Part shown: positions 2-4,766 of the stretch, piece after piece
Position numbering within the stretch: position 1 is the stretch's first letter
Layout of the letters: the number at the start of each line of letters is the position of its first letter
NCBI GenBank assembly: GCA_011389895.1
Contig: JAABTN010000005.1
Span: 1 to 64,000, forward strand
Source: Maritimibacter sp.
Lineage (GTDB): Bacteria; Pseudomonadota; Alphaproteobacteria; Rhodobacterales; Rhodobacteraceae
Direction: 5' to 3'
Length of the DNA stretch: 64,000 bases
Program-made: the position numbers and the translations under genes
The notes under the pieces: model-generated
The model's input: only the letters and a program-made list of their open reading frames with translations
Told to the model about the DNA's origin: nothing
The model's database searches: none

Positions 2-1906
2 GACGACCAGTCGATCTACGGCTGGCGTGGGGCCGAAGTGGGCAACATCCTGCGGTTTGAAAAGGATTTCCCGGGGGCCAAGGTGGTGCGGCTGGAACAG
101 AATTACCGCTCCACGCCCCATATCCTTGCCGCTGCCGCGGGCGTGATCCGGGGCAACGAGGACCGGCTTGGCAAGGAGCTTTGGACCGAGGCCGAGGACG
201 GCGAAAAGGTCCGCCTGATCGGCCATTGGGACGGGGAAGAGGAAGCGCGCTGGATCGGGGACGAGATCGAGGCTCTTTACACAGGGAGCTCGTCACTTGC
301 CAAAAGGCGAGAGAATACTCGCATGGAAATGGCCATCGAAGCGGTCAAGCGCCTAAGTGACAGTGGCGCGTTGTTAGGTTTGAACAGCCGCGAAGAACTC
401 GTCTCTCGTCTTTCGAAACACGATGGTTTTTTGAGTGAAACTCAGAACAAGGCATTACTCTGGGAGCTGACGACTCGCCTTGAAGAAGGCTTGTCCATAG
501 AGCCAGCCATCCTGCGTTTCTACTATGAAGAAATCGCAATCCTCGTGCGCGCCAGCCACCAGATGCGCGCCTTCGAGGACCGGTTCCTGACCATCGGCCT
601 GCCATATCGCGTGATCGGCGGGCCACGCTTTTACGAACGCCTCGAAATTCGCGATGCCATGGCCTATTTCCGGCTCGCGGTCAGCCCGGATGACGCGCTC
701 GCGTTCGAGCGGATCGTGAATACGCCGCGCCGGGGTCTGGGCGATAAGGCGGTGCAGACGATTCAGCGCATGGCGCGGGATTACGATCTGCCGCTGGTCG
801 ATGCGGCGGCCCGCTGTGTTCAAGAGGGCGCGATCAAGGGCAAGGGGGCCAAGGGGCTTTCCGATCTCGTGCAGGACATCTACCGCTGGCACGCGGCGAC
901 GCTTGGTCCTGTGCGCGAGATTTCGGAAGACCCCCCTGCGGCGCAAGAAGCGAACGCAGATGTATTCGAGGACGATTTCCCACCGTTCAAAGACATCGGC
1001 TACGGTCAACCGGACGCGCCGGCAACAACGGTTGTGCGGGGCGAGCCGGAGCTGTCCCATATTGAGCTGGCCGAGATGATCCTGGAGGAGTCCGGCTACA
1101 CCGGGATGTGGCAAAACGACAAGACGCCCGAGGCCCCGGGGCGGCTGGAGAACCTGAAAGAGCTGGTGAAAGCGCTGGAGCAATTCGAAAACCTCCAAGG
1201 GTTTCTCGAACACGTCGCGCTGATCATGGACAATGAAGAAAGCGAGACCGAGGAAAAGGTCACCATCATGACGCTGCACGCCGCCAAGGGGTTGGAATAC
1301 CCCGTGGTGTTCCTGCCGGGGTGGGAAGATGGCCTTTTCCCCTCGCAACGCTCGATGGACGAAAGCGGCCTCAAGGGGTTGGAGGAAGAGCGGCGGCTGG
1401 CCTATGTCGGGATCACCCGGGCGGAAGAGCTTTGCACCATCTCCTTTGCCGCCAATCGCCGGGTCTATGGCCAATGGCAAAGCCAGTTGCCATCGCGATT
1501 CGTCGATGAATTGCCCGAGGAACATGTGGATGTGCTGACCCAGACCGGGCTTTATGGCGGCGGCTACGGCGCGGCGGATGACCAGTTCGGCGCTTCCCCG
1601 TTGGAAGACCGGGCGGCGCGGGCCAATGCCTATAACTCGCCGGGGTGGCGGCGGATGCAAAGCCGGGGGGCCACGCGGTCCATGGCGACGCCGAACGAGG
1701 CGCGGGGGCTGACCATAGATTCCACCGCCCTGTCCGCCTTTTCCCAAGGCGACCGGGTGTTTCACCAGAAATTCGGCTACGGCTATGTCATGGGGATCGA
1801 GGGCGACAAGCTTGATGTCGAATTCGAACATGCCGGGGCGAAGAAAGTCGTGGCGAAATTCATCAAACCCGCCGACCGCGCGGGAGAGGATGACGTTCCG
1901 TTCTGA
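2..1906 (+). CDS. uvrD: ATP-dependent DNA helicase UvrD/PcrA (5' truncated by window edge)
   Basis: Frame open from nt 2: DDQSIYGWRGA, LEQNYRST, AILVRA, TLHAAKGLEYPVVFLPGWE, EERRLAYVGITRA motifs of UvrD-type SF1 helicases. Confidence 0.95.
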   Translation, partial: DDQSIYGWRGAEVGNILRFEKDFPGAKVVRLEQNYRSTPHILAAAAGVIRGNEDRLGKELWTEAEDGEKVRLIGHWDGEEEARWIGDEIEALYTGSSSLAKRRENTRMEMAIEAVKRLSDSGALLGLNSREELVSRLSKHDGFLSETQNKALLWELTTRLEEGLSIEPAILRFYYEEIAILVRASHQMRAFEDRFLTIGLPYRVIGGPRFYERLEIRDAMAYFRLAVSPDDALAFERIVNTPRRGLGDKAVQTIQRMARDYDLPLVDAAARCVQEGAIKGKGAKGLSDLVQDIYRWHAATLGPVREISEDPPAAQEANADVFEDDFPPFKDIGYGQPDAPATTVVRGEPELSHIELAEMILEESGYTGMWQNDKTPEAPGRLENLKELVKALEQFENLQGFLEHVALIMDNEESETEEKVTIMTLHAAKGLEYPVVFLPGWEDGLFPSQRSMDESGLKGLEEERRLAYVGITRAEELCTISFAANRRVYGQWQSQLPSRFVDELPEEHVDVLTQTGLYGGGYGAADDQFGASPLEDRAARANAYNSPGWRRMQSRGATRSMATPNEARGLTIDSTALSAFSQGDRVFHQKFGYGYVMGIEGDKLDVEFEHAGAKKVVAKFIKPADRAGEDDVPF

Positions 1907-2038: not shown

Positions 2039-2077
2039 AAACAAAAAACGACGACGCTCGGGAGGAGGTGAGCGTCG
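2039..2077 (-). terminator. Rho-independent terminator formed by the last CCUCCUCCC hairpin
   Basis: Minus strand: CGACGCTC-ACCTCCTCCC-GAGCGTCG followed by TCGTTTTTTGTTTTT. Confidence 0.8.
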
Positions 2078-2387
2078 CCGTTCTTTCATGCAACCGGCCT
2101 CAGGGAGGAGGAGAGGCCTTTTGCGTGCGGCCCGGAATGAATTCCGGTGTCTGGTCCTGACCCCCGGGAGGAGGAAGGGGGCGGACAGCAGATGTTCCAG
2201 GGAGGAGGAAAGGAACATCCGATCTCGTGTCTGACGGGCGGCACCCCGGGAGGAGGTGGAGCGCCGCCCTCAGGTTCGGGCCGATCTGGGAGGAGGTAGA
2301 CCGGTCCGCTTCGTGAACCCGGGACGCATCAGGGAGGAGGAGATGCTTGCCGGGTTATCGCGCGCGTCTGGGAGGAGGTAGACGCGC
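2052..2387 (-). ncRNA. CcsR-like (cuckoo RNA) sRNA array: 8 hairpins with CCUCCUCCC loops
   Basis: GGGAGGAGG on + strand at 2060, 2103, 2166, 2200, 2248, 2288, 2332, 2370; each flanked by complementary arms (e.g. CGACGCTC/GAGCGTCG, GATGTTCC/GGAACATC, GCGCGTCT/AGACGCGC); directly downstream of a minus-strand DUF1127 gene, as for CcsR1-4 in Rhodobacter sphaeroides. Confidence 0.88.
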
Positions 2388-2396
2388 CCGAATGGC

Positions 2397-2618
2397 TTAT
2401 TTCTGTTCGCCGTACGCGGCCGCGCGGGCCAGGAACGGAATGTCGGCGCGCGAGATGCCGAGATCGGCAAGATCACGACCATTCAGCGCACGAAGTTCGT
2501 TCAGCGTGGTGTGGTAGACCTTGCGCTGGGCGCGGGCTTCGGAAAGATACTTGAATGCGGCAGACACGCGGTCGAGGAGGCCGTGGTCGTTGGAGCGGAT
2601 ATCAGTTGCGTATGCCAT
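2397..2618 (-). CDS. DUF1127 family small protein (CcaF1-like)
   Basis: MAYATDIRSNDHGLLDRVSAAFKYLSEARAQRKVYHTTLNELRALNGRDLADLGISRADI: RxYRxTxxELxxLxxRxLxDLGIxRxDI signature; AAGAAGAG ribosome site upstream of ATG at 2618. Confidence 0.88.
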   Translation of the reverse strand: MAYATDIRSNDHGLLDRVSAAFKYLSEARAQRKVYHTTLNELRALNGRDLADLGISRADIPFLARAAAYGEQK

Positions 2619-2943
2619 GTCATCATCTCTTCTTGTCTGTGCGCCGAATTCGTCTGCTCGGCGCGTCGTCGTCTTGGGATCATGTCCCGTTCGCTTGAGA
2701 TGAAAATGGGGAATTTGCTGCACCTGCACAATCCCGAGAATGCTCAATGCTGCTATGCAGAAAATGCATACGTGAGACTGACATACTTACTTACGCTAGG
2801 GAAACCCTGCGCGCGCGAGGTTTGCCATAGGTTTCCCCGATGGCGCCGGTCTGCGCCCGAATCCCACGTTTGGCCGGGGTCCGCCCCTTGTGGTTCAGCT
2901 TGAAACGGGCCACCTAGGGAACAACAATATTGGAGGACCCTTG

Positions 2944-4032: not shown

Positions 4033-4080
4033 CCCCCGGCACCCCGCGCGCGTCTGGCCAAGGCCGGGGTGCCGCCATCG

Positions 4081-4480
4081 CGGGATTTCATGGGAATGAG
4101 GTGCCCCCGGACGGTCGCTCTGGCCGCCCATGGGAAATCATGGCCCATAGTTTTCCAGTTTGCCCCCATACCCGTATTATTGTTCGAATCTGGCAAGGAA
4201 TCGCATGAATCCTTGATGAGATTCGTGCGAAAAGCCCCCGAGATCTTACGCGACAAAGGCCGGATTCCATGATATTCCCAGTTTTCATGGGAAATCAGGG
4301 GAATTTTTTCAAGAAATTTTATGATACTATATATTGTGTTATGGGGTGCAATATTACGCGATATAGGTTTCTTTGTTCTTGTTTTGATCACCCAACACCT
4401 TGTTCCATTCCCCTGTGCCGATCAACATCTTGGGGTGTTTTTCCCTAAAAAGGTATTGCTTCCCATGAAATCCCATGGCA
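4081..4480. promoter_or_regulatory. Candidate MraZ-binding boxes upstream of mraZ
   Basis: 10-bp-spaced TGGGA-like repeats: CGGGA-N5-TGGGA (4081-4095), TGGCC-N5-TGGGA-N5-TGGCC (4121-4145), TGGGA-N5-GGGGA (4288-4302), minus-strand TGGGA-N5-TGGGA (4461-4475). Confidence 0.55.
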
Positions 4481-4489
4481 ATCATTTAA

Positions 4490-4705
4490 ACACGATGAGG
4501 ACGGGAACAAAGGGGCGCACAAGAACCCCGAAACATCTCCCAAGTCAGGTTTCATACAGGCACCCCGCTTCATCGCTAAAAAAGAGATCCGACGCGCTCG
4601 CGAGCAGACATCCCCCCAGGTGGCGACCGCGATCGGACGAACCCAGAGATGGGACGAGGGCGGCGGATTGGACAGTGGCAGCAGTTCAATCCGTCGTTTT
4701 CGTTT
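4490..4705 (+). ncRNA. UpsM-like sRNA / mraZ 5' leader (5' end approximate)
   Basis: Long non-coding leader upstream of mraZ ending in an intrinsic terminator, the arrangement described for UpsM upstream of the Rhodobacter sphaeroides dcw cluster; no sequence comparison possible here. Confidence 0.5.
4661..4704 (+). terminator. Intrinsic terminator/attenuator within the mraZ leader
   Basis: CGGCGGATTGGAC (4661-4673) pairs with GTTCAATCCGTCG (4684-4696) as a 13-bp stem with 2 G-U pairs, followed by TTTTCGTTT. Confidence 0.75.
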
Positions 4706-4766
4706 CCGGGCCCCGAACCGGGGCAGGCGGTCAATGGACGAGGGACAGTAACGGGAGCCGCACCAA

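Follow-up and report, generated by a model that had tools for sequence, protein, structure and literature searches.

The minus strand of the 64-kb stretch of Maritimibacter sp. DNA analyzed here (hereafter, the window) carries a DUF1127 gene followed by eight hairpins with CCUCCUCCC loops. This array belongs to an established stress small-RNA family, in which it is unexceptional, and the part worth following is a PhaR-type operator in its promoter, which looks like a binding site of PhaR, a sensor protein for the storage polymer PHB, and would connect these RNAs to cellular carbon reserves. We propose, with a probability of roughly 0.75, that this is a stress-induced antisense-sRNA operon, which would be repressed by PhaR until PHB granules titrate PhaR away.

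An operon of a DUF1127 gene, eight hairpins and a terminator

On the minus strand, the order of the elements is promoter, DUF1127 gene, eight CCUCCUCCC hairpins and terminator. The DUF1127 ORF, which the initial annotation had placed ahead of the array, was confirmed at 2397-2618 (-) by a match to PF06568 (38.3 bits; cut-off, 23.3). It encodes a CcaF1-like protein of 73 amino acids, whose homologues precede the arrays in relatives, and two further DUF1127 genes are located elsewhere in the genome. The first loop starts about 22 nt past the end of this gene. A DUF1127 gene thus lies directly upstream on the same strand, as in the ccaF1-CcsR (CIN1) operon.

The loop motif GGGAGGAGG was found at precisely the eight starts reported previously (2060, 2103, 2166, 2200, 2248, 2288, 2332 and 2370) and nowhere else in the window, for which 0.92 occurrences were expected and the maximum among 100 shuffles was four. 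The minus-strand RNA from 2040 to 2400 was folded with an MFE of -169.8 kcal/mol (z = -8.4 versus shuffled sequence). As the initial annotation had described, all eight motifs were located in hairpin loops, each on a stem of its own; they were unpaired in the fold, and the array spans 2043-2391 (-). In the fold, hairpins 1 to 7 on the minus strand occupy 2358-2391 (loop 2370-2378), 2316-2356 (loop 2332-2340), 2277-2308 (loop 2288-2296), 2231-2273 (loop 2248-2256), 2189-2221 (loop 2200-2208), 2151-2188 (loop 2166-2174) and 2090-2124 (loop 2103-2111), respectively. The description of stems that differ around an invariant loop was also borne out. Using 511 hairpins from the present locus and related loci, the own arms of the hairpins scored 10.1, versus 6.3 with arms swapped inside a locus, which indicates that the stems are under pairing constraint.

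Two elements had been overlooked. Hairpin 8 (2043-2086 (-), loop 2060-2068) has a stem of 17 pairs followed by UUUUUU and is an intrinsic terminator; the operon therefore ends with a Rho-independent terminator, as the CIN1 operon does. Compensatory stem changes and the U-rich tail of hairpin 8 are visible across the genus. A simple terminator scan, which covered loops of up to 8 nt, did not list this hairpin. The other element is a ninth, motif-less mini-hairpin (2132-2147 (-)), which precedes the last two hairpins. Each of the eight genomes of the genus has such a hairpin at the matching position, and its stem differs in sequence. It is possibly a processing or spacing element.

The array belongs to the cuckoo family

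The initial annotation had assigned the array to a cuckoo-type family on the minus strand, linked it to the DUF1127 gene and suggested a covariance-model search. This search gave a match above the cut-off to Rfam ar14/cuckoo (RF02344; 65.5 bits at 2272-2397 (-); cut-off, 58.8), which spans hairpins 1-3 and lies on the strand of the DUF1127 gene, and all three assignments proved correct. Among Rfam families, ar14 was the only one above its cut-off within the window. The characteristics of the family were also found, with CCUCCUCCC in unpaired hairpin loops on stems that vary yet remain paired. The proposed likeness to the CcsR RNAs of R. sphaeroides held for the layout of a DUF1127 gene and an array, but not for the CcsR1 model (RF02791), which stayed below its cut-off of 65.3 bits (best match, 35.9 bits, E = 4e-6) at each of the several places that it matched. 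In a set of 397 genomes of the same taxonomic family, nearly one per genus, the CcsR1 model matched 329 genomes and reached the cut-off in only 17 of the 397, while at least one adjacent loop pair was present in 302. The ar14 match and this wide occurrence indicate that the locus is a standard cuckoo/CIN1 locus. A second credible cuckoo locus was not found in the genome, in which the other ar14 matches had E values of 0.7 and 5.5.

Two observations concern other parts of the window. In the UvrD/PcrA-like helicase gene, a run of about 80 in-frame codons (281-535 (+)) has a G+C content of 0.50, versus 0.63-0.64 around it; a comparison with 116 named related loci, of which many include the helicase gene, gave no good match to this run. 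A long leader is present at 4033-4766 (+) between an mrp/apbC-like gene and mraZ. Since the mraZ 5' UTR of R. sphaeroides yields the sRNA UpsM (PMC7866481), an UpsM counterpart may lie in this leader.

The promoter carries putative PhaR operators

The promoter lies outside the region that the initial annotation considered, and it stacks an RpoH-like core, a LysR-type box and an exact PhaR-type site, CTGCATAGCAG. The LysR-type box (2754-2770 (-)) is the inverted repeat TATGC-N7-GCATA at an upstream activator position. It contains TGCA-N6-GCAT, which is the LsrB activator site of the S. meliloti cuckoo sRNA NfeR1 (PMC10746234), and had at most one mismatch to ATGCN7GCAT in 58 of the 59 PhaR-encoding loci. 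Operator 1 (2750-2760 (-)) overlaps the right half of this box and equals CTGCNNNGCAG, the reported PhaR site of R. sphaeroides (PMC12542648) and the operator sequence expected in a promoter of the PhaR regulon. Its extended form TTCTGCATAGCAGCATT (2746-2762 (-)) occurs in perfect form only here and before phaP within the genome. Operator 2 (2715-2731 (-)), TTGTGCAGGTGCAGCAA, has the form TGC-N4-GCA, overlaps the -35 element and the spacer, and has no other exact match in the genome. With operator 1 over the activator box and operator 2 over the -35 element, the predicted layout suits repression.

The RpoH-like core (2704-2731 (-)) consists of the -35 element TTGTGC (2726-2731), 14 nt and the -10 element CCCCATTT (2704-2711). 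This core is conserved, with a CCCAT-type element at like spacing in relatives. By analogy to R. sphaeroides, for which an RpoHI/RpoHII promoter of ccaF1 was reported (PMC10253847), an RpoH-type core is plausible, and no sigma-70 promoter was found. The upstream region contains a long block of conserved sequence with, in order, ATGC-N7-GCAT, the overlapping CTGCATAGCAG, TTGTGCAnnTGCAGCA and CCCAT, in which TTGTGCAnnTGCAGCA usually starts 28-29 nt past CTGC.

The putative operators follow phaR

The genome encodes PhaR (PF07879, E = 2.1e-27) in a pha locus with phaZ, phaC, phaP and phaR (L078). In the 3.1-Mb genome, the extended operator TTCTGCNNNGCAGCATT was matched perfectly at exactly two sites, one in the array promoter and the other in the phaP promoter, while the reversed control gave none. 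The phaP promoter has two exact CTGCN3GCAG sites. Among 45 upstream regions, CTGCN3GCAG was exact in 24 and within one mismatch in 42; in the shuffled controls, these values were 0.4% and 10.8%. As a separate observation, the phaZ promoter (L068, G000 C6:38787-38803) carries a version of operator 2 with two mismatches, CTTTGCACTTGCAGCAT, which suggests that the same regulator may act there.

PhaR was found in 383 of the 397 family genomes. Of the 62 PhaR-encoding genomes that were examined, 60 had operator 2 within two mismatches, whereas the four complete PhaR-less genomes (G003, G151, G312 and G365) all lacked it. Fisher's test gave p ~ 2e-5, treating genomes as independent and using 59/61 versus 0/4; the PhaR-encoding G303, with two mismatches, was added later. 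The two exceptions among the PhaR-encoding genomes are G334, which has two exact CTGCN3GCAG sites, and G041, which has none near. Operator decay with phaR loss, as is expected of the PhaR regulon, was thus observed, although G041 encodes PhaR yet is without operator 2. In the locus of G041 (L035), the DUF1127 gene is behind the array terminator, and the region upstream of the array was scored instead. Low-completeness genomes without a detected phaR (G100, G166, G224 and G328) were set aside as likely assembly gaps; operator 1 was kept in all four of them and operator 2 in three.

In the RsmH tree, the four PhaR losses are on separate branches (four changes; 0% of the bootstrap trees with one). 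G365 and G041 are neighbours in this tree, and their arrays are located away from rsmH. The array of G365 is relocated, so that this case may not be a clean co-loss, and the clean co-losses are therefore counted as three (G003, G151 and G312).

A scan of named genomes for the composite operator alone gave at least 117 matches in at least 116 records, and the titles among the matches listed were Rhodobacteraceae or unresolved higher ranks. Among the 117 matches listed, 109 were followed by a DUF1127 gene within 400 nt, two were cut off at the sequence end, and the remaining six were followed immediately by an array, with no DUF1127 gene recognised, which indicates that the operator follows the array even without the protein gene. 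At L130, L194, L207, L216, L223 and L234, the cuckoo array comes directly after the operator and no DUF1127 gene is recognisable; these arrays seem to have lost their protein partner. At a further locus, L153, the composite operator occurs twice at a distance of about 220 bases, which may reflect the duplication of a promoter or of an operon start.

The most serious alternative is a plain CcsR/cuckoo operon under RpoH and a LysR-type factor, in which the TGCA repeats bind that factor or another regulator, not PhaR. Of the elements, the LysR box persists best, with an exact repeat in each of the four complete genomes that lack PhaR; in S. meliloti, LsrB controls NfeR1 through a box of this kind (PMC10746234). 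The conservation of operator 1 may be partly owed to its overlap with the LysR box. In addition, the spacing of operator 2, TGC-N4-GCA, differs from the N3 of the published PhaR sites considered here. However, this alternative accounts neither for the exact match to the phaP operator nor for the pattern of operator 2 loss, which was seen in each of the four complete PhaR-less genomes but hardly anywhere else. We therefore regard it as unlikely, and favor PhaR as the probable ligand of the operators. A link between PhaR and CcsR was not found in the literature searched, in which Reinkensmeier 2015, Billenkamp 2015 and Gruetzner 2021 were covered via citing papers; one of these three may already have noted the promoter motif.

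The size of the array is ordinary

The initial annotation had described the array as expanded and suggested a comparison of copy numbers, and our surveys did not support the expansion. The Rfam consensus of CcsR1 has two CCUCCUCCC loops per 83-nt sRNA, and RS0680a was described with two aSD stem-loops (PMC3927594). From these, CcsR1-4 should carry about eight loops, a number derived from the model, as none of the loci was identified as the R. sphaeroides sequence. Loop counts in the eight genomes of the genus are 8, 8, 8, 8, 8, 8, 12 and 14; eight, found in six of them, is the commonest count in the genus and is unremarkable in the family. Named arrays with enough sequence (n = 80) had a median of six loops, with eight or more in 24, and about 47 of the 397 genomes, counted by eye, had at least seven adjacent pairs on a single strand. 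The longest arrays have 26 loops (L025 in G165, the largest seen) and 20 loops (L385 in G303). The near-identical repetition of a three-hairpin unit in G165 suggests that this array grew recently in tandem. Viral contigs were also scanned by pattern for phage-borne arrays, with at least 119 stretches as the result; no DUF1127 gene was present in the loci checked, and these were treated as chance matches.

The initial annotation had further proposed that the expanded array possibly acts as a multi-copy sponge or a ribosome-binding-site decoy, which would titrate ribosomes or another RNA. Many identical anti-SD loops, reaching 20-26 in some genomes, would suit such a role, for which we found no support: the loop number is ordinary here, and in relatives RNase E cleavage yields discrete sRNAs (PMC10253847, PMC7866481) with specific mRNA targets (PMC10746234, PMC8307010), as in the silencing of ntrB by NfeR1 via antisense pairing of its aSD seeds (PMC10746234). 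A sponge or decoy is thus very improbable. Least credible of all is that the repeats function at the DNA level or are selfish elements, such as REP-like palindromes, with no use as RNA. Tandem expansion in some genomes, as in the near-identical triplets of G165, would suit this view, which is countered by the conserved promoter, terminator and order behind DUF1127, by the single locus in the genome and by the expression of the relatives as RNAs.

A proposed PHB-gated small-RNA operon

Under the PhaR-repressed antisense-sRNA reading that we prefer, the locus would be one minus-strand operon, transcribed by a stress-type RNA polymerase at the RpoH-like core, and a LysR-type activator at 2754-2770 probably helps the transcription. 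The transcript would run through the DUF1127 (CcaF1-like) gene into a 3' tail, in which the last of the eight hairpins is the terminator. The tail would be cut into small RNAs, whose CCUCCUCCC loops may pair with the Shine-Dalgarno regions of target mRNAs for silencing, and the DUF1127 protein may assist the maturation of the small RNAs. According to published work, PhaR acts as a repressor until it is sequestered by PHB granules, and the S. meliloti sRNA gene MmgR is under direct repression by PhaR (AniA), which links PHB to an sRNA (PMC12542648). PhaR on the two operators, overlapping the activator box and the -35 element, would likewise keep the operon repressed while the cell is without PHB; when PHB granules form, PhaR would be titrated and the operon would open, as with the phasin.

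In R. sphaeroides, RNase E releases the CcsR RNAs from the ccaF1 transcript; these RNAs depend on Hfq, have flhR mRNA as a target and also influence pyruvate dehydrogenase (PMC8307010, PMC7866481, PMC10253847). Because they affect C1 metabolism and pyruvate dehydrogenase, the operon may serve as a brake on carbon overflow, and a PHB-gated brake on carbon flow is a reasonable possibility. These RNAs are filed as stress sRNAs touching C1 metabolism and pyruvate dehydrogenase, and a carbon signal is not stated in the literature searched; a PhaR operator, if true, would supply it. It is likely, though slightly less so than the reading of this locus, that the cuckoo/CcsR operon is a direct target of PhaR throughout the Rhodobacteraceae. 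The anti-SD sRNAs would then be gated by the PHB store in concert with a LysR-type regulator and stress sigma factors.

Comparison with known systems

The locus shares with ar14/cuckoo of S. meliloti (NfeR1) the identical CCUCCUCCC loops on variable stems, a three-hairpin model match above the cut-off and the TGCA-N6-GCAT box, which is also in the NfeR1 promoter. NfeR1 is, however, a three-hairpin sRNA gene with a sigma-70 core under NtrC control, whereas here eight hairpins are in one operon with DUF1127, behind an RpoH-like core and predicted PhaR-type operators. The CcsR1-4/ccaF1 operon of R. sphaeroides (RF02791; CIN1) resembles the present locus in the DUF1127 gene followed by the array and in the terminator, and its RpoH-type promoter has a putative counterpart in the RpoH-like core here. 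Its loops are about the same in number (2 x 4, as calculated from the Rfam model), but the hairpins here are spaced more evenly, and their pairing into two-loop sRNAs is not obvious. The phaP promoter of the present genome has the exact extended operator TTCTGCNNNGCAGCATT and two tandem sites, but serves the phasin gene and no cuckoo RNA. MmgR resembles the present locus as an sRNA gene under PhaR, in that predicted PhaR-type operators stand here at an sRNA operon. To our knowledge, MmgR is a different RNA, neither a cuckoo array nor tied to DUF1127. If our reading is true, the link between PhaR and sRNAs known from MmgR would extend to a different RNA family and order.
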